From Sphingobacteriales bacterium (lineage in GTDB: Bacteria; Bacteroidota; Bacteroidia; Chitinophagales; CAIOSU01), in contig JAIXOI010000023.1 of assembly GCA_027486795.1 (NCBI GenBank), forward strand, positions 248,001 through 312,000: a stretch of DNA of 64,000 nucleotides. Direction: 5' to 3'. Below the pieces are notes generated by a model, which was not told the DNA's origin, did no database searches, and saw nothing but the letters and a program-made list of their open reading frames with translations. Positions within the stretch are counted from its first letter, which is position 1. Every line of letters starts with the position of its first letter. Below are positions 8,388 to 29,504 of the stretch, piece after piece. Position numbers and translations under genes: made by a program.

Positions 8388-8547
8388 TATTTATAAAAAG
8401 TCAATACTGCACGCCTAATAACTACCAAGTATCAACTAAAGATGCTGCAAAATAAACCATTTTGAAGAAACTAGTTTTTTGCAGTTAAAGATTTCACTGA
8501 AAGTGTTAATTTTAGATTTAACCTATACTCTAATTCAAGTTATTGCC

Positions 8548-10798: not shown

Positions 10799-12592
10799 CT
10801 ATTCAAACACGAAGTAAGAGAAGGCCAAATGATCCGCATACTCTGGCAACATAACACCACCAGCTGGACGATTAAATATTGATTCGAGATAGATTGGTTT
10901 GGTTTTGAAAGGAATAGCATAAACGGTTTCTATATAGCGCTCCATCAAATCCATTCGCGCGCTGTCCGATACAAATACTACTTGCTCCTTATGGGCTACC
11001 AGATAATTGGCAATATCGGCAACGCCATACCCGCCACAATACGTTGTCATAGCTTGTTTAAACTGCGGGTACATATACATTTCGCCATTGTCAATTGCTA
11101 AAAAATTTTCTTCGCGAGCAAACTCATTGCTATCAAACAAGTCGGCATAAAGCAATTGAAAAGCAAAACTATGGAATACCATAATCCGACCCTCAAATTG
11201 CGGCTGCTTTAGTTCCGCTTTAAAGGCCAGCATATTCTCCTTCCCTAATTGGTAGTTGGCAGCCGATTGGCGCAACTCTTGCGTTTTAAGCACAGCCGGC
11301 ACTAATAGACACATCCCCGAAAGTAACATAAATGACCTGTTGAACCTCCTACCCATCCATCCTTCTGGCATTAAAAGTATAGGAAACAGAGTGAGCGAAA
11401 CCAGACCCAACGTAAGAAGTGGTGCCATTACACGCAGTTCCATTTTCATAAACACCGTTACGCCAAACAGTATAGCCCAAAACCACAACTGCATGGCTAG
11501 TATGAGCAATAGTTTTTTGTTTTGATGGTTTAACCCCAAAAGCACCAAAGCAAAAAATAAAGCCAAAGTGTAAGCTATAAAAAATAGGGGCTGCTTAAGG
11601 GCAAGGCTATGCCAAACATTAATTGCCTTAGCAACCCGCAAGTTGAACCCCACAAAATAATCACCCAAGGAGCCCAAAGATTTTTCGAGCGGCAGCACCC
11701 CGATACTTTCATAAAACTCAGGGCTAAGTGCCTGCTCATCTGATATAAAATAAGTCTGCGCCGCTTCTAGCTTTATACTATCTACTGCCGTTTTTAGCTG
11801 AAACAAATGCTCATCTTGACCAAAATCCCAAAGTGTGTGCGTGTATACCCGCGTATCGCGAAACATTTTCTCTGCCGGACCTGTGGCACCTAAGTATAGC
11901 ATATATGCCCCAGCAAACACAGGCAGCACCACCAACGATACTTTGAACAAGCCCACTCTGGCCTTGCCTTGCCTTGCCACCCAAAGGCCATAGGGCAAAA
12001 AGATGACCGTGCACATCAGTGTTGGTTCCAGCCTTATAAAAACGGCTAATAACAGCAGTACCGTAAAAAATACTCTAACCTGCAGTAGCTTCGGTATACG
12101 TTGCATCACAATTGGCAGATAGGAAACTACCAGCCCTAGGATACCAATGCCGCATGCCAGAAAAGCCAGTTCGGTGGTACGGTACATAACTATATGGTAA
12201 GTCCAAAACGGAAGCAATAGTAAAATTAAACCTGCAGCTATTATGCGCATATGGGCAATAGTGTGCCAATAGGCATAAGCTATCCAAAGAAATCCAGCTG
12301 TTGCAAAAAGCATAAAAGTTTCGCCAAAAACACCATACCAATTTAACTGGGGCAGCATATTATAGCCTACCGCCATAAGGTGCGACAATGCTGTATAAAA
12401 ACCGTAATTGTAGAAAATAGGCTTAGCAATGCCCCCACTAAAACTACCGTCAACGTAGGCAGTAAAAAACCTATCAGAAAACTCACTGTAGTAAATACCC
12501 CAAATACCATAGCACAATAAATGCAACAGCATAGCGCTTACAAAACTCTTGGCTAACGGACTTAATCTGCTGAAAATTTGCGTCACTGACAA
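10799..12592 (-). CDS. polytopic membrane protein, GT-C-like, paralog of the next gene
   Basis: About 597 residues with about 11 hydrophobic helices in the first ~430 residues and a soluble C-terminal domain of ~160. It has no recognisable catalytic motif, but overall shape matches GT-C glycosyltransferases. It is clearly related to the divergently transcribed neighbour: same length, VDSIKL in the first large loop, a K-M-x-x-x-x-A-P-L membrane segment, and a VVFVSDSARMDLMERY C-terminal segment that matches KVVLVMSKHRIDLIKSY there. The start is uncertain: no ATG fits, and TTG at 12592 or GTG at 12586 are both possible. Probable role in surface glycan or lipid assembly, by context only. Confidence 0.7.
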   Translation of the reverse strand: MSVTQIFSRLSPLAKSFVSAMLLHLLCYGIWGIYYSEFSDRFFTAYVDGSFSGGIAKPIFYNYGFYTALSHLMAVGYNMLPQLNWYGVFGETFMLFATAGFLWIAYAYWHTIAHMRIIAAGLILLLLPFWTYHIVMYRTTELAFLACGIGILGLVVSYLPIVMQRIPKLLQVRVFFTVLLLLAVFIRLEPTLMCTVIFLPYGLWVARQGKARVGLFKVSLVVLPVFAGAYMLYLGATGPAEKMFRDTRVYTHTLWDFGQDEHLFQLKTAVDSIKLEAAQTYFISDEQALSPEFYESIGVLPLEKSLGSLGDYFVGFNLRVAKAINVWHSLALKQPLFFIAYTLALFFALVLLGLNHQNKKLLLILAMQLWFWAILFGVTVFMKMELRVMAPLLTLGLVSLTLFPILLMPEGWMGRRFNRSFMLLSGMCLLVPAVLKTQELRQSAANYQLGKENMLAFKAELKQPQFEGRIMVFHSFAFQLLYADLFDSNEFAREENFLAIDNGEMYMYPQFKQAMTTYCGGYGVADIANYLVAHKEQVVFVSDSARMDLMERYIETVYAIPFKTKPIYLESIFNRPAGGVMLPEYADHLAFSYFVFE

Positions 12593-12735: not shown

Positions 12736-14526
12736 ATGAATCTAGTTAAAACCAAAAAAAATGCTGCTTTTGTTGCTGTGGTAGCTATACCGTTAGCGCT
12801 CATTTGTTTTGTTGGGGTGTACGTTACTATTGGCGATGGCATATTTGCTGGGCTGATGTTGCAGGGGTTATTTTTTCCACCAATCGAGAAATTTTATCTT
12901 GTTACCAATGGCAGCAATCGCTTTTTGCTGGCACCAATGGTGCAGCTTTACAAGTACTTTCCCAAAATAAATTGGTTCGATGTATCGCAATTAGTACCCG
13001 GTATTATTACGCTATTGCTGCTGCTTTACATTTTGTTTACTACTATTCTGCAATCTCTTACCAATAAATGGGCAATCCTTTTGGCAACGGTATTTAGCAC
13101 CTTGGTTGGTGTCATTTTTGCAGAAAGCACCATTCTTTACGACCCCCTTTCATCGTCTTTGATGCTACCATTACTGGTTTTGTTGCTGCCACAATATTTT
13201 AGTCACAAATGGACCAAGGCGAGCTCATATTTATTGCTTACACTGTTATTGTTATTCTGCTGGCAAATACGATACCAAGGCATATTTGTAGGCCTCGTGC
13301 CAGCAGTAGCATTGTTGGTGCTGCTTGACTTATCGCCATTGAAATTCTTGAACAAATACAAATATGCCTTGCTGCTTATTGTAGCTACTTTTGGCATTTT
13401 TACAGGGGGCAGTTATCTGCAAGACAAAAATGTTACCCCCGAGGAGCAGAAGATTGCGGAGCTGGATAGCTACATATATACCTTCAGCGACGGCATGGTA
13501 GTAAAACCAGGTACGTACGACATTACCAACCCCGTTGATTCTATTAAGCTTATAGCCTATTATACTTTTTACTTTGCCGAGCCTACCGATACAGCACTGG
13601 CATATATGAAGCATATCACTTACTCGTCGGTTTTTGAGGGCGATGTATTGGCTGGCTTACCCAACAAATGGGGCTTATTTTGGGAGCGGGCTGCAGTTGA
13701 TGGCCCCATGGCTTACCAAGGTTACGACCGATTTATGTGGTATATGTTGGTAGCCAACTTAGTATTCTTATTATGGGCTTTTCTATTGGCCCCCAACAAA
13801 ACATGGATATGGAAAGCGCTGCTCTGGACGCTATTTGTTTGGTGCTACTTTGTATCGCTAGGTGTTGCCGTTAAAATGATACCCAAACTAGCAGCACCTT
13901 TAACCTTTTTCTTCCTCTTTAGCTTTGTGTACCTCGCTTTACAGCTATGGCGCGATAGAAACAATGCACCCACTGATAGAGCCACTTTTGCCGTTGCAGC
14001 TAGTTTCGTTGTGCTGATTAGTATTGTAGGGTTTCAGTTAAAAACTTACGCTAGCATTAAAGCTGACCGCCAAGAAGGACTTGCCCTGAAGCAGGAAATT
14101 GTAACGGAAATGAACCAATTGTTCCCGGATAAACTATTAGTGTTCGACTTTTTCTCGGAAGTAGTATTGGAAGACGAAATTGGCGTTGATAATAGCACCC
14201 GAGATTTGTTGCCAGAGGCCACCATGTTCGGCGACTTTTACATGAGCCTTTTTCCAACCAATAAGCAACATTTAGAAGCCCTTACTGGTACAAGCGACTT
14301 TGTGTCGTTTTTTGAATATTGCGCCAGCAACCCTAATAAAGTAGTTTTGGTAATGTCGAAGCATCGTATTGACCTAATTAAATCCTATCTTAAACTGGTT
14401 AAAGGGGTAGAGCTTAACTTTGTACCCCTAGAAGGTGACTACAATATTGAGAAACTAGAACACAGCTTTTACGAAGTTCCCCTGCTATTAAACTACTACC
14501 AAGTTACCTTTGGCGAACCCAAATAA
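12736..14526 (+). CDS. polytopic membrane protein, GT-C-like, paralog of the previous gene
   Basis: A 596-residue protein with about 11 predicted membrane helices followed by a soluble domain of ~165 residues. Related over its length to the protein encoded head-to-head at 10799-12592, with NPVDSIKL in the loop, VKMIPKLAAPL in a late helix, and the MSKHRIDLIKSY segment near the end. The divergent pair shares a 143-bp intergenic region that must hold both promoters. The downstream arylsulfotransferase-like gene starts 22 bp after the stop and is probably cotranscribed. Enzymatic activity is unproven. Confidence 0.7.
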   Translation: MNLVKTKKNAAFVAVVAIPLALICFVGVYVTIGDGIFAGLMLQGLFFPPIEKFYLVTNGSNRFLLAPMVQLYKYFPKINWFDVSQLVPGIITLLLLLYILFTTILQSLTNKWAILLATVFSTLVGVIFAESTILYDPLSSSLMLPLLVLLLPQYFSHKWTKASSYLLLTLLLLFCWQIRYQGIFVGLVPAVALLVLLDLSPLKFLNKYKYALLLIVATFGIFTGGSYLQDKNVTPEEQKIAELDSYIYTFSDGMVVKPGTYDITNPVDSIKLIAYYTFYFAEPTDTALAYMKHITYSSVFEGDVLAGLPNKWGLFWERAAVDGPMAYQGYDRFMWYMLVANLVFLLWAFLLAPNKTWIWKALLWTLFVWCYFVSLGVAVKMIPKLAAPLTFFFLFSFVYLALQLWRDRNNAPTDRATFAVAASFVVLISIVGFQLKTYASIKADRQEGLALKQEIVTEMNQLFPDKLLVFDFFSEVVLEDEIGVDNSTRDLLPEATMFGDFYMSLFPTNKQHLEALTGTSDFVSFFEYCASNPNKVVLVMSKHRIDLIKSYLKLVKGVELNFVPLEGDYNIEKLEHSFYEVPLLLNYYQVTFGEPK

Positions 14527-16214: not shown

Positions 16215-16913
16215 CTAGGCCTTTTTGCGTTTCAGATAAGCATACATTTCCTCCAGCACAAAAAGTATGGTGGATAGTTTGGCGGAAGTGGCTATGCCTG
16301 TCATGCGTTGCTTTTGGTCAACTGGTATTTCAGCAATGCGGTAGCCATGCTTATTAGCCTCAACCAACACTTCGGCCATCATAAATATGCCCCGCGATTG
16401 GTAATGTACTTTATCAAAAATAACCCTTCGGTAAAGGTGTATCCAGTTATAGTCTTTTAACTTGAGGCCAAACACCCATCCAATAAGCTTGTGGTATGCC
16501 CATGAGTTGAAACGCATCCGATTGGTATAACCAACACGCTTTACCCGATAACTGGATATTACATCGGTAATAGGGGCAGTGGCGACAAAAGGGGCTAAGG
16601 TTTCGGCATCCATTGGACTATCTACAGGCACACACAGCACATATTCTTTGGTTGCTGCCTGTAAGCCTGTCCACACTGCTGCGCCAAAGCCGCCATTCTG
16701 GGCATTGCACACCAAACGGGTGCTGGGCCATTTATTTATGTTAGCTTCAATTAGCGCTTTGGTGCTATCTTGGCTGCAATCGTCAACAATAATAATCTCA
16801 AAATCGGCCACGGCAGCCTGCACGGCATCTAGGGTTTGCTGCACCGATGATACAATAATTTCCTCCTCATTGTAAGCCGGTATAATAATAGACAAGGAGA
16901 TTGACCCACTCAT
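16215..16913 (-). CDS. GT2 glycosyltransferase, DPM1-like, soluble
   Basis: A 232-residue GT-A enzyme. The N-terminal LSIIIPAYNEEE strand, the nucleotide-binding VDD at 43-45 and the PVDSPMD metal/acceptor motif at 96-102 are all present. No membrane helix is visible, unlike the GT2 at 7506-8387. It probably transfers a sugar to a polyprenyl phosphate. The start ATG overlaps the stop of the preceding Gfo/Idh gene by 4 bases (ATGA), a strong sign of translational coupling. The same gene pair in the same order with the same 4-base overlap recurs at 24558-26275. Confidence 0.88.
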   Translation of the reverse strand: MSGSISLSIIIPAYNEEEIIVSSVQQTLDAVQAAVADFEIIIVDDCSQDSTKALIEANINKWPSTRLVCNAQNGGFGAAVWTGLQAATKEYVLCVPVDSPMDAETLAPFVATAPITDVISSYRVKRVGYTNRMRFNSWAYHKLIGWVFGLKLKDYNWIHLYRRVIFDKVHYQSRGIFMMAEVLVEANKHGYRIAEIPVDQKQRMTGIATSAKLSTILFVLEEMYAYLKRKKA

Positions 16914-17977
16914 TTCACCACTTTAATTGATTGCCCATGCTGGGCAATGCTTTCCTCAATAGCCTCCAACACACGCACTACATTGGCCGCATTTTGCCAG
17001 CCGGTGCGCGGTTGCTGCTGACCATTAATACAAGACATAAAATGCTCTAACTCCTCTCTTAATGGCTCTTTGTAATTAATATTAGGTATGCTCACATCGT
17101 TGTTTAATACCGATAATTGAAAATCGCCGAAATCGCCGCGGGTTTGGGTGGTTGGGGCAATAGTATGATATAACCTTATCTTTTCAGAAGGTACCACATC
17201 GTTGAACAACAACATACCTTTTGAGCCAATAACCTTCATTTCGCGCTGCTTTACCAGTTCCATCCACGATACGAAAATGTTTACTGATAAACCAGTCGGG
17301 TATATTAAATCGATATTAGCCAAGTCATTTTGGTTGGAGCCAAGCAATTTGTAACCCGTGGCATTTACCGCATCGGGCACGCTGTTCAATAGCAAATTGG
17401 CTATAGATATATCGTGGGTGGCAAGGTCATATACCACATCAGCGTCATCGCGAATGGGCCCATTGCCACAACGCCTAAACGATAGGTATTTCAAATCGCC
17501 TAGAGCTTCCCTGTCAATTTCGTGTTTGGCATGCAACACGGCACTGTTGTATTCAAAAGTATGCCCAACCAATAAGGTCAGGCCTTTGGCATCGGCCATT
17601 TGGCCAAGTGCTTCGCTTTCCTTAGCGGTTAGGGTCAGCGGCTTTTCGCAAAGCAAGTGTTTACCCGCTTGCAACAAACGCTGGCAAATGGCAAAATGTG
17701 AACTTAAGCCTGTGGCTACAATTACTGCAGCCACTTCTGGGTCAGTAGCAATACTTTCAAGACTTGCATAAAAATGCAGATCGGGGTAAAGTTGCTGTAA
17801 TTCACTTATCCGGCTCTCCGAAGAATCGAGTATACCCGACAACCTGATTTGTGGATGCTGCATACATAGGCGCAGGAAGTGTTTCCCCCAATAACCACAA
17901 CCAACCAATGCAATGTTTAATTTCTTAGCCCCCAACTTCGCCGCCTTGTATTTAGAATTGTAATAATCTATACTCAA
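16910..17977 (-). CDS. Gfo/Idh/MocA-family sugar dehydrogenase
   Basis: About 340-355 residues. An N-terminal Rossmann fold begins NIALVGCGYWGKH (GxGxxG), followed by the CEKPLT motif that carries the catalytic/cofactor lysine, and by LATHDISI in the C-terminal domain. Related WbpB-type enzymes oxidise UDP-sugars at C3 before transamination by DegT enzymes, a fitting role here. The start is unclear: the frame has no ATG. The TTG at 17977 lies inside a TACCTTTG promoter-like element on the minus strand (17982-17975), so TTG at 17935, 6 codons before the Rossmann strand, may be the real start. Cotranscribed with the GT2 gene downstream. Confidence 0.85.
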   Translation of the reverse strand: MSIDYYNSKYKAAKLGAKKLNIALVGCGYWGKHFLRLCMQHPQIRLSGILDSSESRISELQQLYPDLHFYASLESIATDPEVAAVIVATGLSSHFAICQRLLQAGKHLLCEKPLTLTAKESEALGQMADAKGLTLLVGHTFEYNSAVLHAKHEIDREALGDLKYLSFRRCGNGPIRDDADVVYDLATHDISIANLLLNSVPDAVNATGYKLLGSNQNDLANIDLIYPTGLSVNIFVSWMELVKQREMKVIGSKGMLLFNDVVPSEKIRLYHTIAPTTQTRGDFGDFQLSVLNNDVSIPNINYKEPLREELEHFMSCINGQQQPRTGWQNAANVVRVLEAIEESIAQHGQSIKVVK

Positions 17978-18089: not shown

Positions 18090-19574
18090 ATGTTTCAGCC
18101 TGACATAGCGGATATACTGACCCAAACTAACCCAACTACGACCAAAACCGTGGAGGGCAAAGGCTTGCGCACGCTGCTATTGAACCTGCCTTATCCTACC
18201 CGCATTATTAGGCGCTACATGTGCTCTTATAATGCCCCAAACTTTCTATTTCCGCCGTTGGAGCTTATTTCACTCGGGGCCATATTGAAGGAATGGGAGA
18301 AAGATGAAGTGCTACTTTATGATGCCATAGCCAAGGGCGCCGATTTAAAAGAGACCAACGAATTTATTGCCCAATATCAGCCCGATATTATAATTGCCAT
18401 TACAGGCTTTGAGGTATTTGACCATGATATGGACATGGTGCGCGGCATAAAAGAGCACAATTCCAAGGCTAAAATGATTTTGTTTGGCCACTATGCTACC
18501 CAGTTTACCCAAGAGGTAATGGAACGTGTGCCGGTGGACATAATAATACAAGGCGAGCCTGACCTGATTTTTGCTGAGGCTTATAAAAAGATAAAAGCTG
18601 GCGAATCCTTAGAGGATGTAAAAGGCATTGCCTACCGCACTAAAGATGGTAAAATTGTGCTTCAGCAAGGTAACTTGCGCCTGCCCGACCCATCGGTGCT
18701 ACCCATGCCCGCATATGATATGTTGGAGAAAGACGCTTATTTCGAGCCCTTCTTGCCAAAGCCGTTTGGTATGATTCAGACCGCACGAGGTTGCCCATAC
18801 CAATGCAATTATTGCGTAAAATCGTTCGGCACCAAGCTAACTACCCGCACCCCCGAGCAGATTGTTGATGAGATAAAAGAGCTAAAACGCTTATTCGGCA
18901 TTAAATCGTTGCGATTTATTGACGATACTTTTACCGTTATCCCATCGAGGGTAATTGCCATTTGCAAATTAATGATTGAGGAAAAGGTAGATGTGCAGTG
19001 GTCGTGCCTAAGCCGTGCCGATACCTTGAACGAAGAGATGCTGATATGGATGAAAAAAGCCGGTTGCAAGCGCGTGTACATAGGTGTTGAATCGGGCAGT
19101 CAGCGCATTTTAGATTTCTATAAAAAGAAAGTAAACGTTGAAGAAGCCTTGGCCAACATTAAGCTCTGTAAAAAGATTGGAGTAGAAACTATGGGCTTTT
19201 TTATAGTGGGTATGCCAGAAGAAACCCGTGAGGACTTTGACCTTACTTTGAAGTTTGCTAAAAAATCAGACTTAACATTTGCCATCGTGTTTGAGTTAGT
19301 GCCTTATCCGGGAACACCACTCTTTCCGTTAATGAAAGACAAAATCAACTTTTCGTTGATGCCTTACAAAAACGAATACAAAGACCCAGAATTGCGCGAG
19401 CGTTTCCATAAATGGGAGAAGGAATTTTATTTCAAATTCTACTTTAGGCCCAAGTACATTGCGCAAAGCATAGCCAGAGCTATTTCGAAGCCTCTGGAAA
19501 CCCTAGCAAGCGTTGGAAAGCTAGCTAGTTTCATCGTTTTGCCTCAAAAATCGAATCGTAAAGATTTTATCTAA
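18090..19574 (+). CDS. B12-binding radical SAM protein (1 of 3)
   Basis: A 494-residue enzyme, start at ATG 18090 (a TTG 9 nt upstream is in frame). Residues ~30-190 form the cobalamin-binding Rossmann-like domain (PPLELISLGAIL, GEPD). The radical SAM barrel carries the [4Fe-4S] cluster motif CxxxCxxC at C235, C239 and C242, preceded by TARG. The C-terminus has the PYPGTPL motif often seen in this class. Such proteins perform difficult methylations or rearrangements on unactivated carbons. The substrate is unknown; gene context points to a glycan or its lipid carrier. The next gene begins 2 bp after the stop. Confidence 0.9.
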   Translation: MFQPDIADILTQTNPTTTKTVEGKGLRTLLLNLPYPTRIIRRYMCSYNAPNFLFPPLELISLGAILKEWEKDEVLLYDAIAKGADLKETNEFIAQYQPDIIIAITGFEVFDHDMDMVRGIKEHNSKAKMILFGHYATQFTQEVMERVPVDIIIQGEPDLIFAEAYKKIKAGESLEDVKGIAYRTKDGKIVLQQGNLRLPDPSVLPMPAYDMLEKDAYFEPFLPKPFGMIQTARGCPYQCNYCVKSFGTKLTTRTPEQIVDEIKELKRLFGIKSLRFIDDTFTVIPSRVIAICKLMIEEKVDVQWSCLSRADTLNEEMLIWMKKAGCKRVYIGVESGSQRILDFYKKKVNVEEALANIKLCKKIGVETMGFFIVGMPEETREDFDLTLKFAKKSDLTFAIVFELVPYPGTPLFPLMKDKINFSLMPYKNEYKDPELRERFHKWEKEFYFKFYFRPKYIAQSIARAISKPLETLASVGKLASFIVLPQKSNRKDFI

Positions 19575-19576
19575 AC

Positions 19577-21358
19577 TTGGGCCAAAGCAACACCATAGCT
19601 ACACCTTCACCACTTTGGCGTACCATAACTTACGCTGCCCTTTTTATTATAGCTGTTATTAAGCTAGGCTTTATGTTATGGTCAACTAACAAAGGTTTCG
19701 ACCTTGGCGACGAAGGCCTGTACATGCTGAGCCTAAGCAACCCCGAACACTACAAAGTGCTGGCTCATGGCTATTTCTTTAACAAAATTTTACCTTTAGG
19801 CGAGTTTACCATACCGGTTTCACGCACCATCAGCATTTGTTTGGAGCTATTTGGTGGCTTAGTTTTTAGCTGGGGTGTTTACCGTTGGCTTGCCAGTCGC
19901 TTATCTGGCGTCAGTTTTTGGGCTATTTGGGCATTGGTGCTCATTGGTTCTTTTCAGAGCATATTGGCGCGCTGCGTGTCCTACAACGATTTAATCAACT
20001 TCTTCGGACTTACCTTCGCTGGCGTACTGCTATCTTCACTTTCATACGAAAGTGGTAAAAAACAAGCCCTACTTTGGATGCTCAGCGCCTTTTTTGTCAC
20101 GTTCTGCACCCTGTTTAAAGCACCCGTTACCATTAGCTTAAGCCTACTATATTTTACAGTGACTACCTTTTATGGACCTGGCAAAAAACTACCAAACCTT
20201 GCCAAAGCAGCTGCTGCTTGGGTTGTGGGAGCCGCACTAACAGTAGTAGCCTACACCATACTTTACAATGGCTTAGGGTGGACAGATGTAATTAGCCATG
20301 TAAAAGCAACTGCCGACTTGCTCAACTATCGCCCAATTGATTTGGTACTGATGTATGTAATATATGACGGAACACCTAACCTGGTTTTTATCGGTTTGGG
20401 CATTGGGATATACTGGCTGTGCTATACCATGATAAAATCAATAGCGCCCAATCGAACTCTATTGGCTTTTCTATTTTCCAGCGCTATTAGCACTGCAATA
20501 TGCTATGGAGCCATTATCGGCCTGAAACAACTGCTCATAACCGAAGAACAACCCGTTTACTTTTACTTATGGGTGGTAATAAATGTGCTGATAGTATTGG
20601 TGCATAATACATACAAACGATTGGGCCACCAATTCCGCAAAGAGGTTTTTATACTCATGCTATTCCTCATAGCCCTGCCCATAGCCATGATTGGCGGCAC
20701 CAATGGCTTCATTACCGAAACCCTTTTTGCTTTTTGGATACCTTGGTTTGGCTTAGCAACTATTTGCTTGCACTGGTTGGCATCTGTTGGTTGGTCGGCA
20801 GTAAAGTATTATGTTTTGCTAGGCGCAATGGTTTTGGCTACCAGCATACAATTCCATTACTCGAAAGTGCTGCACCCTTTTGGCGTACCCAACAACCAAA
20901 GCATTTGGGACCAAAAAATACCCTTGGCTGGCAAAGATAAATTAATGCTCAGCCCCGATGTAGTTCAATTTTTCCAATCATTTCAGGCTATACTCGATGC
21001 AAAAAACGTGAAACCCAACACCCCGATAGTTGCATTTAATTACATGCCTGGTTTGGTTTACCTAGCTCAAGGTTATTCTCCGGGGGCACCATTTTATCTG
21101 TATGGAAACGATTTTGTGCGCTACAATTGCCATTTTTTAATGACTGCTGGCGAAACCATACAGCAGCCACCCATAATACTTTACCGCACCTCTACCTTTG
21201 CTTTCCCCAGGCACTTTACCTGCATAAAACAAGGTATCTGGAATGACATAAAAGGGTACCAAGAACAAATCATTTTTGACCCATACGATGCCGTGTACGA
21301 GCACGAAGACTACAACAATGACTCGCTATACATTTGGGTACCCAACAAGGTTAATTAA
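19577..21358 (+). CDS. GT-C (GT39/ArnT-like) membrane glycosyltransferase
   Basis: A 593-residue protein with about 12 hydrophobic helices and a C-terminal soluble region. The first external loop carries GFDLGDEGLYML; an acidic pair here is the hallmark of GT39/GT83 enzymes that take sugars from polyprenyl phosphates. TTG 19577 is the probable start: an in-frame stop sits at 19559 and the next ATG would remove the first helix. It lies 2 bp after the radical SAM gene, so both are cotranscribed. It ends tail-to-tail with its paralog at 21351-23342 with an 8-bp overlap. Confidence 0.8.
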   Translation: MGQSNTIATPSPLWRTITYAALFIIAVIKLGFMLWSTNKGFDLGDEGLYMLSLSNPEHYKVLAHGYFFNKILPLGEFTIPVSRTISICLELFGGLVFSWGVYRWLASRLSGVSFWAIWALVLIGSFQSILARCVSYNDLINFFGLTFAGVLLSSLSYESGKKQALLWMLSAFFVTFCTLFKAPVTISLSLLYFTVTTFYGPGKKLPNLAKAAAAWVVGAALTVVAYTILYNGLGWTDVISHVKATADLLNYRPIDLVLMYVIYDGTPNLVFIGLGIGIYWLCYTMIKSIAPNRTLLAFLFSSAISTAICYGAIIGLKQLLITEEQPVYFYLWVVINVLIVLVHNTYKRLGHQFRKEVFILMLFLIALPIAMIGGTNGFITETLFAFWIPWFGLATICLHWLASVGWSAVKYYVLLGAMVLATSIQFHYSKVLHPFGVPNNQSIWDQKIPLAGKDKLMLSPDVVQFFQSFQAILDAKNVKPNTPIVAFNYMPGLVYLAQGYSPGAPFYLYGNDFVRYNCHFLMTAGETIQQPPIILYRTSTFAFPRHFTCIKQGIWNDIKGYQEQIIFDPYDAVYEHEDYNNDSLYIWVPNKVN

Positions 21359-23342
21359 TGCTAGATTGAGTGTATGTTCCCTTGGGAATAAAAATCAACA
21401 ACGAATCGGAGAGGTTTCTATCAAATACTTGATTCTCAATTTGCCAATACGGATTGAGCAAAAGTGCCGGAGGCTCATAAGAGTCCTCTAAATCAAAACC
21501 ATGCTCAAGCAGACAAGGTGTTACCTCATCAAGCAAGTAGGCATTAACCATGAACACCGGCGGCCGGCTCTCGAACTGTTTGATGCGACCAATATTGAGG
21601 CAATTGGCATTATATAGCTTCTGGTTATACTCGGGGTCGTTTAGCCACGCTACATCAAAGTACCAAGGTGTTGCAGGCGAGTATCCACCAACCAAATACA
21701 CCAACCCTGGCAAGTTGTGCAGGGCTACTATTGGATAGCCATCAGGTATGCCCTTTTGTTGTAAAGCCGATTTGGTATTAGCTACAAAGGTGGCCAAATT
21801 GCTGTCCACCAAAATCTCTTCATTCGGTCCTGATAAAGGCACTTGCTGTTGACTGATAGTGGCATTTAGCCTAAACGGTTGGGTAAAATGGAAATAAGTA
21901 AAGACACTAATAATCATTAGCCCAAGTAGCACAATTATTGGGCCTAGGCTGCGGGTAAAGTGTTTAAGCAATAACAACCCAAGTATTCCAAACCATGGCA
22001 CTAAATAAGCCGATGCCGACACCGCCAAAGAGGTACCCGTGCCCACCATCGAAACCAATGGCATCAATAACAAGAACAACATTACAAGCCTCTCTTGCTT
22101 AGTATAACCCTTAATCCCATCGACCATAAAAAAAAGGTAAAGGCCAAATGATACCGCTGGCACGTACCAATAGTTTAGCAACATGCTCTGGTACTGGTAG
22201 TGTGCATCGGAATAAGGTTGGGGCAGTAATAGGTAATACAGCCCATAAAAAACACAAACCAAAGCAGTAATTATCAAGTGTGGCGCGCCCCAAATGCCTA
22301 CTTTTTTGCCAATAAAACGCAACAGTGCGAAAGTACCTAAAGGCGACAATGCCAAAAGGAGCAACACCAATCCATCGACTGCATAAAAAATAAGTAAGTG
22401 CAATGGATTGTAACCTAGCGGCTCAATAACATACTTATACCCATCTTGATACTCTTGATACCAAGCTGTAGGGGAATAGCCCGTAATAGCAAAAAACAGT
22501 GCTACACCTGCAGAAATACCGCCCAGCAAAACCAGCACACCCCATAACTTGCGGGTAAGGTAAATGGATAAGGCCCCCACTACTGCCATCGAAGCCAAAC
22601 TGGCCGAAAACTTATTAAAGAACTGCAAGCCAATAAAAATGCCCGACACCAACAAAGCTACCAATAACTGTTTCCGCTTTTCGGGCGGGAGATATATCAG
22701 CGGCATACCCAGTGCCATAACGGCAAACAGGTAACTCATGTCGCCCTCATAAAAAATGCGGGAATAGATAATAGAGTAAAACCCCAGTCCCGAAGCGCCA
22801 AGCAAAAATGCAGCAGCGGCCAATCCTTTGTGGTTGCTAGGTAAATTGCGATATAATACTGCCGACACCAACCCTACGACAGCTAAGTCGGATACGATTT
22901 TCAATATCCGAAGACTAAGGATGTTCCAATTGATAAACGGGAAAAAGCCCAAAACGATTTTATGGAAATAATAAAATGGGTTGGGGTCTTTATCGGGGTA
23001 GGTATACCAAAGCATATAGCAACCCTCATCGGTAAGATCGAAGCCCTGGTTAGATATAACAATGGCCATAGCTACCTTATAAACCAATACGAACAACAAA
23101 AAGCCAACTAAAAGCCACGGCAGTTTTGCCGGGTTTGTTGAGGCATTATTGCCAGCATTTACGGGTAGTATATTTGGTCTAATATCCAATGGAATAGAAG
23201 CGAAGTATACTGCAAAGTAGCGCAAAATAGCAGCAAGTTGGTATTGTGCATATCCTTTTGTGTTAATAAATTGCCCCAGAACATTTACCTTTGGGCTATT
23301 ACCGATGCTTTCCCCTAGGCATTGCTTTTTTAAAGAAAACAT
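21351..23342 (-). CDS. GT-C (GT39/ArnT-like) membrane glycosyltransferase, paralog
   Basis: A paralog of the 19577-21358 protein: it shares the first-loop motif GFDLTDEGCYML, the NLPGLVYLVGGYSP segment (MPGLVYLAQGYSP in the paralog) and the same helix pattern. The frame is open upstream to 23468, inside the divergent aminotransferase gene. The ATG at 23342 is the last ATG that avoids that overlap, but gives ~75 extra residues before the first helix. TTG codons at 23225 or 23189 would match the paralog's short N-terminus better, so the start is uncertain. Function as for the paralog, likely a sugar transferase facing the periplasm. Confidence 0.78.
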   Translation of the reverse strand: MFSLKKQCLGESIGNSPKVNVLGQFINTKGYAQYQLAAILRYFAVYFASIPLDIRPNILPVNAGNNASTNPAKLPWLLVGFLLFVLVYKVAMAIVISNQGFDLTDEGCYMLWYTYPDKDPNPFYYFHKIVLGFFPFINWNILSLRILKIVSDLAVVGLVSAVLYRNLPSNHKGLAAAAFLLGASGLGFYSIIYSRIFYEGDMSYLFAVMALGMPLIYLPPEKRKQLLVALLVSGIFIGLQFFNKFSASLASMAVVGALSIYLTRKLWGVLVLLGGISAGVALFFAITGYSPTAWYQEYQDGYKYVIEPLGYNPLHLLIFYAVDGLVLLLLALSPLGTFALLRFIGKKVGIWGAPHLIITALVCVFYGLYYLLLPQPYSDAHYQYQSMLLNYWYVPAVSFGLYLFFMVDGIKGYTKQERLVMLFLLLMPLVSMVGTGTSLAVSASAYLVPWFGILGLLLLKHFTRSLGPIIVLLGLMIISVFTYFHFTQPFRLNATISQQQVPLSGPNEEILVDSNLATFVANTKSALQQKGIPDGYPIVALHNLPGLVYLVGGYSPATPWYFDVAWLNDPEYNQKLYNANCLNIGRIKQFESRPPVFMVNAYLLDEVTPCLLEHGFDLEDSYEPPALLLNPYWQIENQVFDRNLSDSLLIFIPKGTYTQSSIN

Positions 23343-23349
23343 ACCAACC

Positions 23350-24492
23350 ATGTCGAACCGCATACCTTTGGTAGACCTCAAGAAGCAATACCTGCAAATA
23401 AGAGAAGAAATAAATGCTGCTATAATGCAGGTAATTGACGAGACCGCCTTCATTGGCGACCCAGGCAATCGTTTTGTAGGGCAGTTTGAGTCAGACTTTG
23501 CAAATTATATTGGTATCAAACACTGTATTGGATGTGCCAACGGAACCGACTCGATGGAAATATTGCTTCGAGCCTACGGCATTGGCCTTGGCGACGAAGT
23601 ACTAGTACCTGCCATGACTTGGATTTCGACCGCATCGGCAGTAAATGCAATAGGGGCAAAAGCAGTGTTCGTAGATATTGACCCAACCTACTATACCATT
23701 GACGAAAACCTTATTGAGCAGCACATTACACCCAAAACCAAAGCCGTAATACCTGTGCATTTTTATGGCAATATGGCCAATATGTCTGCTATAATGGAAA
23801 CAGCCACCAAGCACAATATTGTAGTAATTGAAGATTGTGCTCAAGCCCATGGTGCCGAGTTAAACGGTAAAAAAGCCGGAACTTGGGGCCATTCGGCCAG
23901 CTTTAGTTTTTACCCAGGCAAAAACCTTGGCGCTTACGGCGATGCTGGCGGAATAACTACCAATGATGACAACATTGCGTCCCGATGCCGCATGATAGCC
24001 AACCACGGCCAAGCGGGCAAGCACAACCACCAGCTCATTGGCCGCAATAGCAAGCTGGATGGCATACAAGCCGCCATACTATCGGTAAAGCTGAAATACT
24101 TGGACCAATGGACTGACGCACGTATAAACAACGCCGCTACCTACGACCAATATCTCAACTTTCCGGGTTTGCCATCGGCAAGGCCCAATAGCAAGCACGT
24201 ATTCCACTTATATGTAGTGCAGGTGCCCGAGAGGGATAAATTACTTGAAGAGCTAAAGGCCCACAATATATTTGCGGGTATACATTATCCAGTATCGTTG
24301 CCGTTTTTGCCTGCTTATGCTAGTTGGGGGCATGTTGCTTCCCATTTTCCTGTGGCACATTCTTTCCATTCCAAAATTATATCGCTGCCCATGTATGCAG
24401 AGCTAACTGAGGAGGAGATAAAACAGGTGGCCGAGGTAGTAAATGCCGCCGTAAACCAAGAAGCTACTAGCGTTGCTAACACCAAATATTAA
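23350..24492 (+). CDS. DegT/DnrJ/EryC1/StrS-family sugar aminotransferase
   Basis: A 380-residue PLP enzyme. The start ATG at 23350 (MSNRIPLVDLKKQY) matches the family N-terminus; in-frame codons from 23260 are extra. The PLP-phosphate contact GTDS (65-68), the EDCAQAHG motif with D162, and the internal-aldimine lysine K191 in SFYPGKNLGAYGDAG are visible. It converts a 3- or 4-keto nucleotide sugar to the amino sugar. The Gfo/Idh gene starts 65 bp downstream, the same pair of activities used by WbpB/WbpE-type 3-amino-sugar pathways. A TACCTTTG element at 23286-23293 could be its -7 box, without a well-placed TTG. Confidence 0.93.
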   Translation: MSNRIPLVDLKKQYLQIREEINAAIMQVIDETAFIGDPGNRFVGQFESDFANYIGIKHCIGCANGTDSMEILLRAYGIGLGDEVLVPAMTWISTASAVNAIGAKAVFVDIDPTYYTIDENLIEQHITPKTKAVIPVHFYGNMANMSAIMETATKHNIVVIEDCAQAHGAELNGKKAGTWGHSASFSFYPGKNLGAYGDAGGITTNDDNIASRCRMIANHGQAGKHNHQLIGRNSKLDGIQAAILSVKLKYLDQWTDARINNAATYDQYLNFPGLPSARPNSKHVFHLYVVQVPERDKLLEELKAHNIFAGIHYPVSLPFLPAYASWGHVASHFPVAHSFHSKIISLPMYAELTEEEIKQVAEVVNAAVNQEATSVANTKY

Positions 24493-24557
24493 GCTGTGCA
24501 TTTGACAATGATATGTAACCAGTCTATATTTATACGCACATTGAGGAACAAACAAGT

Positions 24558-25559
24558 ATGAACGTAGGCGTATTGGGATATGGGTATTGGGGGCCGAACT
24601 TGGTGCGCAACTTCATGCAGAAGGAGGGTATTACTGTTTTCGGGCTTGCCGATTTACGAGAAGACCGTTTGAAAATAGCGAACAAGAGTTTCAGGGGTAT
24701 ACTGCTTACTCGCGAGGCCAACGATTTGCTCACTCACCCCGAAATTGATGCAATAGTAATAGCCACGCCCGCAAGCACGCACTATGCTTTTGCCAAAAAA
24801 GCCATTGAAAATGGTAAGCACGTTTTGGTGGAGAAACCCTTGGCCACCAAAAACGAAGAAGTTGCCGACCTTTTTGCCCTAGCCGAAAAGCATGGGGTTA
24901 AGTTGATGGTAGATTATACATTCCTTTATACCGGCTCGGTACAGAAGATTAAGAAAACCCTGCAGAACCAGGATTTTGGGCAGATACATTACATTGACTC
25001 CACTAGGATAAACCTTGGGGTGTTTCAGTATGATACCAACGTACTATGGGACCTTGCCACACACGACCTTTCAATCATCTACCACTTAATTGATGAACGC
25101 CCCTACCAAGTGCAGGCCATTGGAGCCGCACATATGGGCAACGGCGTTGAGAACATAGCCTACGTTACACTGCGCTACCGTTCAGGGCTTATTGTGCACC
25201 TCAATTGCTCATGGGCATCGCCAGTTAAAATAAGGAAGATGATTATTGGTGGTGACAAAAAGATGATTATCTATGATGACATTGAGCCTACCGATAAGCT
25301 TAAAATATACGACTATGGCTATTCAATGATAACCGATGAATATCGTCGAAATGCCCTAGTCGATTACCGCCTAGGAGATGTGAGCATCCCTAAATTTTCG
25401 TTGCAAGAAGCGCTTGCTGGTTTGGTTGATGATTTCTATAACGTAGTAGTCAACAATGGCACACCACTTTATAGTCCGCAATTAAGCATTGATGTAACTC
25501 GGACACTTATAGCTGCCGAACAATCGTTGAAACAGGACGGTCAAATGGTAGCACTATGA
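24558..25559 (+). CDS. Gfo/Idh/MocA-family sugar dehydrogenase
   Basis: A 333-residue oxidoreductase. GxGxxG is at G7/G9/G12 in GVLGYGYWG, VEKPLAT at 91-97 carries the conserved E92-K93-P94, and DLATHDLSI marks the C-terminal domain. It is homologous to the protein at 16910-17977 (same motifs, similar length). By analogy with WbpB it could oxidise the nucleotide sugar that the upstream aminotransferase then aminates. Its stop overlaps the following GT2 start by 4 bases. Confidence 0.9.
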   Translation: MNVGVLGYGYWGPNLVRNFMQKEGITVFGLADLREDRLKIANKSFRGILLTREANDLLTHPEIDAIVIATPASTHYAFAKKAIENGKHVLVEKPLATKNEEVADLFALAEKHGVKLMVDYTFLYTGSVQKIKKTLQNQDFGQIHYIDSTRINLGVFQYDTNVLWDLATHDLSIIYHLIDERPYQVQAIGAAHMGNGVENIAYVTLRYRSGLIVHLNCSWASPVKIRKMIIGGDKKMIIYDDIEPTDKLKIYDYGYSMITDEYRRNALVDYRLGDVSIPKFSLQEALAGLVDDFYNVVVNNGTPLYSPQLSIDVTRTLIAAEQSLKQDGQMVAL

Positions 25560-26275
25560 ACTTGGCGGGGCAGAGCTGGTCGTTAGTGATATTTTGCTAC
25601 AACGAAGCGGGTACCATAGCCCGCGTGATAACTGATGCCCTTGCCGCCGGCCAGCATTTGGCTCAACAACAACCCTATGAGGTTCTAGTGGTTGACGATG
25701 GCAGTCAAGACGGCAGTGGCCCTATAATGGATGCCCTGGCACAACAAAATTCGTTGATACGCATTGTGCGCCACCCCAAAAATCGGGGTATAGGCCCCGC
25801 TCTTATATCGGGCTACCAAAATGCCCGATACGAAAACGTGTGTGCTATACCTGCTGATGGGCAATTCGAGATAAAAGAACTTTATCCTTTTGCTACCTTC
25901 GGCAGCAACGAGGTTATAGCCTTTTACCGACCCGAGAAAACCGGATATGAGCTATACCGCCAATTGCTCACATGGCTCAACTCTTTCTTGAACAAAATGT
26001 TGCTTGGTTTGGTAATGAAAGATGTAAATTGGGTAAAGGCTTATAAGCGAGAGCAGGTGCAAAGCCTACCATTGAGCCTTAAAAGTTCGTTGCTGGAAAG
26101 CGAGATTTGCGCCAAACTGAAACATCAAAAAAGGGTTTTTAAAGAATATCCGTCGGAATATTTACGCAGGGAGTCGGGCGAGCCTAAAGGTGGTTCATTA
26201 AAAACCTTGGCAGCAGCAGCCAAAGAATTTTTGAAACTGGTGCACAGCGTAAACAAATACCGATTGAACCATTAA
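25556..26275 (+). CDS. GT2 glycosyltransferase, DPM1-like
   Basis: A 239-residue GT-A enzyme with WSLVIFCYNEAGT at the N-terminus, VVDDGSQDG at 45-53 and PADGQFE at 99-105 in the position of the metal-binding motif. No membrane helix. It overlaps the upstream Gfo/Idh gene by 4 bases and repeats the arrangement of 16215-17977. The substitution of the usual DxD by DGQ is shared with other DPM-like relatives and need not mean inactivity. It ends 1 base before the convergent radical SAM gene. Confidence 0.86.
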   Translation: MNLAGQSWSLVIFCYNEAGTIARVITDALAAGQHLAQQQPYEVLVVDDGSQDGSGPIMDALAQQNSLIRIVRHPKNRGIGPALISGYQNARYENVCAIPADGQFEIKELYPFATFGSNEVIAFYRPEKTGYELYRQLLTWLNSFLNKMLLGLVMKDVNWVKAYKREQVQSLPLSLKSSLLESEICAKLKHQKRVFKEYPSEYLRRESGEPKGGSLKTLAAAAKEFLKLVHSVNKYRLNH

Positions 26276-26276
26276 A

Positions 26277-27860
26277 CTAGGCCTCCTCAATTTCAACGGT
26301 AGCCTTGCTCCGCAACGACACCATACTATCCTTTTGGTACTTGTTCCAAGCCTTGTACGATTCAATCATATCGCCTTCGTTAACCAATGTCGAAGTTGTA
26401 AGGGTATCGTAATCCTTTGGTTTGTTTACCCCATGCATCATTTTCTGCTTGCCGCCAATCACTTTCTTTATAAACTTATAGATACCTACCCGGTAGGTAA
26501 GTATAAAGGAAAATAGCGCCCTGAGCCTAAAATTTTTGATATAAACCATTAAGTAGGCATAGCTCTGGTAAAATTCCAATTGCCTGCGGCTAATGTTTTT
26601 AAACGCCAACGCACCACCAATCTGCTTGTTGTATTCGTCCCAGTCGGTGCTTAGCAACTTGTAACCACCTTCTGCCTTGGCAGCCATGTCGGCAATAGCT
26701 GTGCCGGGGTATGGGGTCATGAGGCCAAACATTGGCAACTCCGGGTTAATTTTTACGGCAAGCTTTATGGTGTTCTTTATGCTTTCGGACGATTCGTTTG
26801 GTTGGCCAAGAATAAAGAACGTGCCTATTTTTACCTTCTCGGCACGGGCAGCTTTATAAGCATCCTCAATCATTTTAAGGTTGGTACCTTTACCCATTTT
26901 TTTCAATGACGCCTCATCGCCCGTTTCAATGCCCATCTCTACCCTATCCACATTCGCCAGCCTAAACTTTTTGAACATTGCTGCATCTACATAGCGCACA
27001 TGGGTTTGTACATCCCATTTCACTTTTTGCCCAATGCCTTTCTCTATCATAGCATCTAGCAAGGCATGGGTGCGAGGCATATCAACGGAAAACAGCTCAT
27101 CGCCAAACGAAATGCGCTCAGGGTGGAAGGTATTGATAATGTACTCCAGCTCTTCAATAATCAAACGTACTGAACGCTTGCGAGCAATGCGCCCGTTGGG
27201 GTTCATACAGAACAAGCAATTAAACGGGCAGCCGCGAAGCGTTTGCACATAGTAGGTTCCGGCAGGCTTCATTAAATCCCAAGCGGGTATGGGCAGGCTA
27301 TCTTGGTCCATAATGCGCTCGCGCACCGGGCCTTGTTGCAAGCCACCATCAGTAGTGCGGTAAATAGTGCCCGCAATATCAATCAAAGGCAGCTTTGCCT
27401 CATATGCTCGTACTATTTCCAAGAGGGTTTCTTCGCCCTCACCAATTACCCCAATATCGAACATGGCAAACTCCTGCATGGTTTTGGCAGGAATTGAGGT
27501 AAGATGCACCCCACCAATAATATTGAGTATATGGGGCTTAACCTGTTTTAGTTTAGCAGCCACATATGCTGCTGGCTTTATCTCGTTGGTAAATGCCGTG
27601 TAACCCACTACATCGGGCCCGAAGGCTAAAATTTCGGCTAGGCATTTATCAAAACCCATCCGCTCAAATTTGGCATCTACTATTTTAATGTTGCTATATC
27701 CGTGCTGGCGTAGGTATGCTGCCAAGCAAGCAAGGGCTATTCGGCCAAAATCGGGGGTATCGTACCACGGCTCAAACACCGCCAACACTGGCGGATTCAC
27801 CAACACTATCCTTAAGTCCTGGTTAGCTTGGGCAATGGCACTGTTGGTTGCGCTGGTCAT
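26277..27860 (-). CDS. B12-binding radical SAM protein (2 of 3)
   Basis: A 527-residue enzyme. The cobalamin-binding domain spans ~17-150 (IVLVNPP, IIGGVHLTSIP, GEGEETL), and the radical SAM cluster motif is C211-x3-C215-x2-C218 in LRGCPFNCLFC. The C-terminal region after ~440 contains hydrophobic and basic stretches, suggesting membrane association. It lies 27 bp downstream of the third B12-radical SAM gene and is surely cotranscribed with it. Reaction unknown; candidates are C-methylation or skeletal rearrangement of a lipid or sugar. Confidence 0.9.
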   Translation of the reverse strand: MTSATNSAIAQANQDLRIVLVNPPVLAVFEPWYDTPDFGRIALACLAAYLRQHGYSNIKIVDAKFERMGFDKCLAEILAFGPDVVGYTAFTNEIKPAAYVAAKLKQVKPHILNIIGGVHLTSIPAKTMQEFAMFDIGVIGEGEETLLEIVRAYEAKLPLIDIAGTIYRTTDGGLQQGPVRERIMDQDSLPIPAWDLMKPAGTYYVQTLRGCPFNCLFCMNPNGRIARKRSVRLIIEELEYIINTFHPERISFGDELFSVDMPRTHALLDAMIEKGIGQKVKWDVQTHVRYVDAAMFKKFRLANVDRVEMGIETGDEASLKKMGKGTNLKMIEDAYKAARAEKVKIGTFFILGQPNESSESIKNTIKLAVKINPELPMFGLMTPYPGTAIADMAAKAEGGYKLLSTDWDEYNKQIGGALAFKNISRRQLEFYQSYAYLMVYIKNFRLRALFSFILTYRVGIYKFIKKVIGGKQKMMHGVNKPKDYDTLTTSTLVNEGDMIESYKAWNKYQKDSMVSLRSKATVEIEEA

Positions 27861-27887
27861 TTAGTGTGGCAGTATATTGCAGCGAAG

Positions 27888-29504
27888 TTAAGAAGCTTCG
27901 GCCAACCTTTCATGCTGGTTGTATTCGGCTACTTTTTGCGTTGGCGGAGTAGGCACATATCCCTTGCGAATTTTAGTAGCGCGAGGCTTAAGACCTACTT
28001 TGCGAGCAAAGAATGCATACAGATGGTAAATGTAATGCATGGCATAAGCTGCAAACTCTGGGTTATTGTGCGTAAAGCCTGTCATTACATCAAACACCGA
28101 GGCAACAATACGACTAGGCGTTTTAGGAAGCCATCTTACATGACGCGGTTCCATTTTCTCTCTCCAGCTCTTCGGCATAATCGGGAATAGCCTGAACATC
28201 AGTTCATATGCCCGATACTTGGCCACCATTTCGGGGTCCTTTATATTCTCCTCGTTTCGGAAGAAGTAAAAATCTAGTCCCTCATTAAGGCGCTCCTCTT
28301 GCTCCGGCGAAATTTCGCCTGCAGCTATGGCATCCTTCATCATTTCGGTACCAGGCAAATAGCAAGTCCAAAATGTTTGGATACGTTTAGGGCAGGCATC
28401 GCTAGCATATAGCTTCTTGGCCGTATCCTGAGCCGAGATAGGTTCGTTGGGCAACCCAAACATGTGGTCTACTTTTGGTAGCAACCCAGCTTTGTTCATT
28501 GCGGTTAGAGCCTTCTGTATGTGGTCAGAGCTTTCGTAGCGTTTAAGCGAGCCACGTTTCAAGTCTTCATCCATGGTCTGCACACCCATCTGTATCCAGC
28601 GACAACCGGCATCATAAAGCCACTTGGCTACCTCATCGTCAATATAGCGCGGGTGTGTAAGGCACTGGAACGGGAGGTTGATTTCGTTTTTGTATCGGGT
28701 AAGGAACTCCTTCAACCAAGGCTTGTTTACCGTGAATACGTCATCTTGAAAGTCGACCATTTTAATCTTGTACTTGCGCTTGGCCTCTAGTAGTTCATTC
28801 ATCATATGCTCTACACTGCGCTGGCGCACATACTTGCCTTTTTCCTTTTTGTTCTCAGGTAATTCTGCAAAAAAGTTGTTGAAACAAAAGGTGCACCGAT
28901 AAGGGCAACCACGCGATGCCATAGTAAGCCACAAGTCGCCTATGCGCACGTGCTCTTCCCAAAGCGATTTATCGAAAGCTGGTAACGACTCCAAGTCTTG
29001 AATAAAACCCGACTGCACCCCGCGGATAATGCGGCCATCTTTGGCGCGGAAACGGGTATTTACAATAGGTTCTTCTGTGTAGCCGGTTTCAATGCGTTTC
29101 AATATTTCGGGCAACGCAATTTCGCCCTCGCCTACAACCACATAATCTACTTCAGGCTTGGCCAATACTCGCTCAGGCACTGCAGACACATGCACCCCGC
29201 CCCAAACGGTAGTTATTTCCGGGTATAGCACTTTTGCTTCGCGGGCAATGCCCAACATCCATTGGTAGGTGGAGGTAAGTGGCGAAAACGCCAATACATC
29301 GGGCTTTTGCTTCACTATGGCTTTAATAACCTCATTGCGGTCATCAAAAAACTTACCAAGTGACTCTATCTCTAAATTGAAACGATCATTGAATAACGAC
29401 GCACTGAATGCAAGCCCTACTTCGTGCCCATCACGCTTTAGTATAGCCGAGAGCAAGCTGATTGGCAGCTGCTCGGTACCCATTGCAACGAAAGTAACTT
29501 TCAT
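27888..29504 (-). CDS. B12-binding radical SAM protein (3 of 3)
   Basis: A 538-residue enzyme with the same layout: cobalamin-binding domain at ~1-140 (VWGGVHVSAVP, VVGEGEIALP), cluster motif C200-x3-C204-x2-C207 in SRGCPYRCTFC, a conserved MVDFQDDVF segment in the barrel, and a C-terminal domain with a predicted hydrophobic helix. It is the first gene of a two-gene operon. Upstream lies a 360-bp intergenic region. Distinct from the other two radical SAM proteins in sequence, so the three probably act on different positions or substrates. Confidence 0.9.
   Translation of the reverse strand: MKVTFVAMGTEQLPISLLSAILKRDGHEVGLAFSASLFNDRFNLEIESLGKFFDDRNEVIKAIVKQKPDVLAFSPLTSTYQWMLGIAREAKVLYPEITTVWGGVHVSAVPERVLAKPEVDYVVVGEGEIALPEILKRIETGYTEEPIVNTRFRAKDGRIIRGVQSGFIQDLESLPAFDKSLWEEHVRIGDLWLTMASRGCPYRCTFCFNNFFAELPENKKEKGKYVRQRSVEHMMNELLEAKRKYKIKMVDFQDDVFTVNKPWLKEFLTRYKNEINLPFQCLTHPRYIDDEVAKWLYDAGCRWIQMGVQTMDEDLKRGSLKRYESSDHIQKALTAMNKAGLLPKVDHMFGLPNEPISAQDTAKKLYASDACPKRIQTFWTCYLPGTEMMKDAIAAGEISPEQEERLNEGLDFYFFRNEENIKDPEMVAKYRAYELMFRLFPIMPKSWREKMEPRHVRWLPKTPSRIVASVFDVMTGFTHNNPEFAAYAMHYIYHLYAFFARKVGLKPRATKIRKGYVPTPPTQKVAEYNQHERLAEAS

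Follow-up and report, generated by a model that had tools for sequence, protein, structure and literature searches.

What might three radical S-adenosylmethionine (SAM) genes be doing amid a cluster of glycan genes? The question is raised by a stretch of 64,000 nucleotides from a Sphingobacteriales bacterium (assembly GCA_027486795.1, contig JAIXOI010000023.1, positions 248,001 to 312,000), here called the window (G000:C28:248001-312000, where G000 is the window's own genome, other G-numbers are related genomes and L-numbers are individual loci), which contains the genes for three uncharacterised enzyme families, referred to below as radical SAM enzymes 1, 2 and 3 (aliases P0001, P0002 and P0003). 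The answer towards which the evidence inclines, and which is considered moderately probable as a whole, is that these enzymes tailor an amino or amidino sugar of an exported surface glycan, the sugar being passed via polyprenyl phosphate to membrane glycosyltransferases; genomic context lends good support to a sugar-tailoring role for an exported surface glycan.

The genes themselves are as the initial annotation described them. Both the open reading frames and the Pfam Radical_SAM model (101, 76 and 74 bits for enzymes 1, 2 and 3; cut-off 29.5) confirm three complete genes, and the CxxxCxxC motifs that had been placed at 18.8, 27.2 and 28.9 kb read CPYQCNYC (about 18.79 kb), CPFNCLFC (about 27.23 kb) and CPYRCTFC (about 28.91 kb) respectively. 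The reported spacing was likewise correct: 2 bp separate enzyme 1 from a membrane gene at 19577, and 27 bp separate enzymes 2 and 3 on one strand, so that enzyme 1 may well be co-transcribed with the membrane gene, and enzyme 2 with enzyme 3. The statement that all three bind B12 is borne out at the level of domains for enzymes 2 and 3, which pass the Pfam B12-binding model (PF02310, N-terminal; 68.4 and 74.1 bits, cut-off 32.1), but in enzyme 1 this domain reaches 18.4 bits (E 0.002), below the same cut-off, even though the structural model of that enzyme has the fold type of B12-radical-SAM proteins. Clustering density is by itself only mildly unlikely, since for a genome with 18 radical SAM matches 20,000 uniform random placements brought three of them within 10.2 kb in 320 cases; the stronger case is made by conservation.

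Conservation was assessed in 99 related genomes (G000 included), using E-value limits of 1e-60 for enzymes 1–3, 1e-100 for an amidotransferase (the query being the WbpG/WbuX-like N-acetyl-sugar amidotransferase of congener G004), 1e-70 for Gfo52, a Gfo/Idh dehydrogenase of the window, and 1e-80 for a control, the CDP-glucose 4,6-dehydratase, which is a glycan gene of the same cluster. The weakest accepted best matches (9e-127, 9e-171 and 2e-179 for enzymes 1, 2 and 3, and 9e-153 for the amidotransferase) leave a wide gap to these limits, while those for the control (9e-81) and Gfo52 (5e-80) leave little or none. Enzymes 1, 2 and 3 were found in 12, 9 and 13 genomes respectively, and at least one of them in 17. 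The amidotransferase is present in 18 of the 99, comprising all 17 radical SAM carriers and just one of the 82 others (G071); by genus, which is the count to set beside Fisher values that ignore shared ancestry, the figures are 9/9 carrier genera and 1/52 others. In 12 of the 17 carriers it lies on one contig with a radical SAM enzyme, at a distance of at most 50 kb, and in the other five on a different contig. Gfo52 is found in 14/17 carriers and 6/82 others, and the control in 8/17 and 5/82. (In one relative the control homologue, at G006:C2:433456-434520, was read with two internal TGA stops.)

These figures bear on an alternative, considered unlikely, in which the radical SAM genes would be interchangeable accessories of a variable glycan island, alongside 2-oxoglutarate oxygenases, each active in its own sugar branch and none belonging to a common module. 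The islands of relatives do carry extra B12-radical-SAM paralogues (up to seven family members in the G066 region), up to 13 PhyH genes (G049) and AspH, JmjC and SPASM-like genes (several of these names being given by inspection), while the three families are partly independent of one another in their assortment and are found side by side in a single genus. However, the match of the amidotransferase to the carriers is much tighter than that of the control glycan gene, and much of the gene set recurs in Planctomycetaceae.

In G000 itself, contig C5 carries Wzm-, PhyH- and Wzt-like genes followed by carbamoyltransferase, amidotransferase and nitrilase genes; the Wzm-like ABC2_membrane protein and the Wzt-like ATP-binding cassette (ABC) ATPase match their Pfam models at 61.6 and 68.5 bits. 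In congener G004 the order Wzt, carbamoyltransferase, amidotransferase, nitrilase, enzyme 3, enzyme 2, GT2, Gfo, DegT, membrane proteins, enzyme 1 is contiguous, and in G001 the genes of the amidotransferase half adjoin P0003. Because of this contiguity in the one and abutment in the other the two halves are probably one system, and those that lie on separate contigs in G000 would then probably serve one glycan.

The expectation that the three genes would be conserved together was borne out to the extent that all three occur in 5 of the 99 genomes, but they lie side by side in no genus other than that of the window (4 genomes). Elsewhere enzyme 1 adjoins enzyme 2 (G005, G013, G032 and the named loci L090 and L091), or P0003 lies 8–24 kb from P0001 (G006, G049, G066 and G090), and the clusters variously include PhyH, AspH, carbamoyltransferase, WbpG-like, nitrilase and Wzm/Wzt-like genes. 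For the most part the neighbourhoods in relatives are alike in kind. A search of 296 Bacteroidota genomes (G000 included), a set that leans to complete genomes and shows rarity only, added no carrier of enzymes 1–3; independent replication is therefore confined to the loci in Planctomycetaceae and to L090 and L091. Enzymes 2 and 3, searched against plasmids at E 1e-40, gave no match.

An alignment scan of a named genome collection with enzyme 2 gave 26 loci, of which 10 have at least one other module gene or enzyme 1/3-type gene above 70 bits in the DNA examined; five of these ten appear to be relatives already used (G002, G003, G004, G031 and G032). In two Planctomycetaceae contigs (L095 and L097) enzyme 2 is followed by carbamoyltransferase, HisF, amidotransferase, Gfo, DegT, GT2 and an enzyme 3-like gene (41% identity), and a third (L093) differs in lacking enzyme 3; enzyme 1 is absent from all three within the DNA examined. 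HisF stands in for the nitrilase in these contigs, and that of L095 passes the AglZ/HisF2 acetamidino modification model NF038364 (313.7 against a cut-off of 310). A tree of the enzyme-2 family, in which module-linked rows clustered (3 label changes against a shuffled mean of 11.6), was set aside, its outgroups being too distant (branches of 10) and the G006 copy having been counted as linked though it lies away from the module.

Turning to the enzymes themselves, the top NCBIfam models (among the best-scoring families listed, 25 of 36 for enzyme 1, 25 of 32 for enzyme 2 and 22 of 22 for enzyme 3) are HpnJ for enzyme 1 (207 bits, residues 79-470) and BchE for enzyme 2 (146 bits). This is what might speak for membrane-lipid tailoring, i.e. 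hopanoid, tetraether, ladderane-like or polyprenol carrier modification, a reading considered scarcely probable. The best scores among the three proteins, set against the respective cut-offs, are 207/578 bits for HpnJ, 166/481 for BchE, 80/650 for HpnR and 104/360 for TIGR04072, the HpnR and ladderane models scoring lower still than those of HpnJ and BchE, and no hopanoid gene was recognised by eye among the mapped neighbours, squalene-hopene cyclase not having been searched for. Given margins as wide as these, hopanoid, ladderane and BchE-type tailoring were rejected as known pathways to which the genes might belong, and no positive evidence was found for the lipid or lipid-carrier product that the initial annotation had also allowed. 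The AprD4 diol dehydratase model NF033070 (best 106.5/500 bits, for enzyme 1) and TIGR04295, B12_rSAM_oligo (best 75/400 among the three), likewise fall short of their cut-offs.

Structural models cover enzymes 1 and 2. The AlphaFold2 model of P0001 (mean predicted local distance difference test score, pLDDT, 83.4; predicted template modelling score, pTM, 0.84) has as its nearest fold AprD4 (6fd2; Z 33.5, root mean square deviation 3.1 Å, 412 aligned, residues 26-464), followed by MgmA (Z 29.2), and it aligns with OxsB and MgmA across most of its length; as modelled, then, it is a full B12-radical-SAM-type fold despite the weak B12 sequence score, and the HpnJ profile match likewise relates most of the protein to B12-radical-SAM enzymes. 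In the family alignments FGHY.T occurs in the enzyme 1 family in place of the GG.H motif ("GGVH") of enzymes 2 and 3, but this is not proof of B12 loss, since OxsB, which was solved with cobalamin, reads VGNV at the aligned site and so lacks GG there. The P0002 model (pLDDT 79.9, pTM 0.83) matches AprD4 (25.2) and CysS (24.5) in a tie, then MgmA (23.7), while the top Foldseek match is TsrM.

All this said, there are a number of points that weigh against the sugar-tailoring proposal. Enzymes 1–3 are not an obligate trio: enzyme 3 occurs without enzymes 1 and 2 in G037, G056, G076 and G084, and enzymes 2 and 3 are the least co-occurring pair (5 of the 9 enzyme-2 genomes; Fisher p 0.0017, uncorrected for relatedness). 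The amidotransferase occurs without any of them in G071 and, from the 296-genome search, in G253; it lies on another contig in G000 and in congeners G002 and G003, and the G004 protein scores 201.7 bits with the WbuX model TIGR03573, just under the cut-off of 203.2. The Wzt-like ATPase gave no Pfam match to the Wzt C-terminal glycan-binding domain at E 0.5. None of enzymes 1–3 passes the cut-off of any NCBIfam model among those listed, those with a known reaction included, and for enzyme 1 the likeness of its predicted fold to AprD4 proves no function. Finally, 16 of the 26 named enzyme-2 loci have no module gene in the DNA examined (radical SAM paralogue matches of 26–28% being disregarded), all 16 being at or below 50% identity and some of their contigs being short, and the enzyme 2 copy of G006 lies away from the cluster and module. 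The earlier suggestion of an unusual surface-glycan sugar is thus qualified by the unlinked loci and by the G006 copy, but it is sustained by the recurrence of the families in glycan clusters and by their tracking with amidotransferase, carbamoyltransferase and Gfo/Idh genes.

From the gene content, family assignments, co-occurrence and synteny we infer the following substrates, order, reactions and B12 use for a surface-glycan pathway. A nucleotide sugar would be oxidised at C-3 by Gfo/Idh and then aminated by DegT; its N-acyl group would be converted to an amidine by the WbuX/WbpG-like amidotransferase, with ammonia from the nitrilase-type amidase, and the sugar may also be O-carbamoylated. 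Sugars would be placed on polyprenyl phosphate by ArnC/DPMS-like (dolichol-phosphate mannose synthase-like) GT2 enzymes and used at the membrane by the polytopic GT-C-like enzymes, and the Wzm/Wzt-like ABC transporter would export the glycan. C-methylation, which the initial annotation had named, is a possible activity: for enzymes 2 and 3, with their typical B12 domains, the most likely reaction would be C-methylation of an unactivated sugar carbon, methylation being the usual outcome for their class. The nearest solved relative of enzyme 1 is a dehydratase (AprD4) and no methyltransferase; this enzyme would more likely dehydrate or rearrange an amino sugar, may work without B12, and seems to point to an amino-sugar substrate because its relatives HpnJ and AprD4 have such substrates.

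Radical SAM and aminotransferase genes are also present in aminoglycoside pathways, and the same inventory (amino sugar, carbamoyl, amidine and radical C-methyl) might make a soluble aminoglycoside-like natural product and no surface polymer, although this is held to be very unlikely. GenK and GenD1 do C-methylate sugars, according to PMC5461906, but eight polytopic GT-C-like proteins, the ArnC-like GT2 enzymes and the Wzm/Wzt-like and CDP-sugar genes fit a membrane-assembled, exported glycan.

The surrounding cluster starts about 22 kb before the window and continues to 29.5 kb within it; its members in the window are collected in Table 1.

Table 1 Radical SAM enzymes and glycan-cluster genes in the window.
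Feature	Position	Strand	Remarks
Radical SAM enzyme 1 (P0001; HpnJ/AprD4-like)	18090..19574	+	open frame from 18081, ATG at 18090
B12-binding radical SAM enzyme 2 (P0002)	26277..27860	-	Pfam Radical_SAM and B12-binding
B12-binding radical SAM enzyme 3 (P0003)	27888..29504	-	signature CPYRCTFCFNNFFA
Polytopic membrane protein, GT-C-like	19577..21358	+	2 bp beyond enzyme 1; carries GFDLGDEG motif; nothing matched in Pfam or among PDB sequences
Second polytopic GT-C-like membrane protein	21351..23225	-	GFDLTDEG motif; start codon uncertain, open frame to 23468
DegT-type sugar aminotransferase	23350..24492	+	PDB sequence matches
Gfo/Idh sugar dehydrogenase Gfo52	24558..25559	+	homologues adjoin amidotransferase module in relatives and Planctomycetaceae
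GT2, polyprenyl-phosphate glycosyltransferase type	25556..26275	+	best PDB sequence matches ArnC, dolichol-phosphate mannose synthase
Second Gfo/Idh dehydrogenase Gfo47	16910..17977	-	paired with GT2
Second GT2	16215..16913	-	overlaps Gfo47 by 4 bp; scores 58 bits with ArnC model, under its cut-off
GT-C-like membrane protein, same cluster	10799..12592	-	topology
GT-C-like membrane protein, same cluster	12736..14526	+	topology
GNAT acetyltransferase, possible N-acetylation step	6485..7495	-	homologues in regions of G003, G013, G037
GT2, same cluster	7506..8387	-	cluster member
NAD-dependent epimerase/dehydratase, same cluster	576..1550	+	cluster member

In total the cluster has two Gfo/Idh and GT2 pairs, DegT genes and eight polytopic proteins, and its CDP-glucose 4,6-dehydratase and glucose-1-phosphate cytidylyltransferase pass their model cut-offs. 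The GT2, DegT and Gfo/Idh neighbours originally listed are indeed present, but the GT-C label is one of topology only (8–14 hydrophobic segments): the four GT-C-like window proteins have no glycosyltransferase Pfam match, and profiles of the DEG-motif proteins against PDB sequences gave no match at E 1. For the tabulated DegT protein the first PDB match is 7b0d (named glutamine--scyllo-inositol transaminase), then QdtB and 2oga, with WbpE lower. Also in the cluster are a PAP2-superfamily protein (1655-3025, +), two FG-GAP/ASPIC-UnbV repeat proteins (3014-6352, -, and 8479-10791, +) and an arylsulfotransferase-like protein bearing a type IX secretion tail (14549-16210, +), which has a homologue upstream, at window -13376. 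Some 22 kb upstream of the window, another radical SAM gene (L007, G000:C28:225983-227548; SPASM-type by inspection) marks the cluster's upstream end; the clusters of relatives contain multiple copies of its homologues (up to seven in G037). A housekeeping-looking pair at 29865-31777 (class I aminotransferase and CN-hydrolase) was left out of the system, its homologues being grouped only with congeners G002 and G003 among the regions mapped. Among relatives, one 60 kb stretch (G049:C11:308001-368000; L072-L074) holds 13 PhyH-family genes beside radical SAM genes, together with AspH and other 2-oxoglutarate-oxygenase-like genes named by inspection, and UbiA-like, methyltransferase-like and GT32-like genes (families 21-23, also named by inspection) turn up repeatedly in the regions mapped for five relatives (L055-L058, L072-L076, L079-L082).

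A bolder proposal, offered as rather doubtful, is that of a surface-sugar pathway spanning two phyla (Bacteroidota and Planctomycetota). One amidino, carbamoylated amino sugar would there be the common substrate of two C-methyltransferases of the B12-radical-SAM type and, on the Bacteroidota side, of the AprD4/HpnJ-like enzyme, and the outcome would be an undescribed class of surface sugar whose carbon skeleton is made by radical chemistry. Antibiotics already offer examples of sugars C-methylated by B12-radical-SAM enzymes; if the enzymes described here act on a surface glycan, environmental bacteria would be using radical reactions at unactivated carbons to diversify their cell surfaces, and the linked amidotransferase provides a marker for finding carriers. 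For three enzyme families as yet uncharacterised there is now a substrate class that can be tested.

Among the open-access matches listed there was no paper on this gene combination, but several known systems resemble it in part. The acetamidino-sugar O-antigen pathways (WbpB/WbpE/WbpG with HisF2/HisH2; WbuX/WbuZ; archaeal AglZ) share Gfo/Idh, DegT and a WbuX/WbpG-like N-acetyl-sugar amidotransferase, and the Planctomycetaceae loci share the HisF2-type partner too, whereas the Bacteroidota loci, where a partner is seen, have a nitrilase-type hydrolase in place of HisF/HisH and add carbamoyltransferase and radical SAM genes. The undecaprenyl-phosphate aminoarabinose route (ArnB-ArnC-ArnT) has in common with the cluster an aminotransferase, an ArnC-like GT2 and the logic of a polytopic transferase; the cluster proteins are not members of it, however, because they fall short of the equivalog cut-offs (44 and 58 of 529 bits for ArnC, 196 of 631 for ArnB). 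Closest to enzyme 1 by fold (6fd2, Z 33.5) and profile (HpnJ, 207 bits) are AprD4, a radical SAM diol dehydratase, and HpnJ, yet enzyme 1 is far below the curated cut-offs of both (AprD4 106/500, HpnJ 207/578). Both act on glucosamine-type rings: as described in PMC5461906 and PMC12583986, the substrate of AprD4 is paromamine, while HpnJ makes bacteriohopanetetrol (BHT) cyclitol ether from BHT glucosamine. Finally GenK and GenD1, class B radical SAM sugar C-methyltransferases, are likened here by description rather than by sequence comparison, being of the same class in their cofactor use and sugar-carbon target as set out in PMC5461906; they differ in that aminoglycosides are soluble products.

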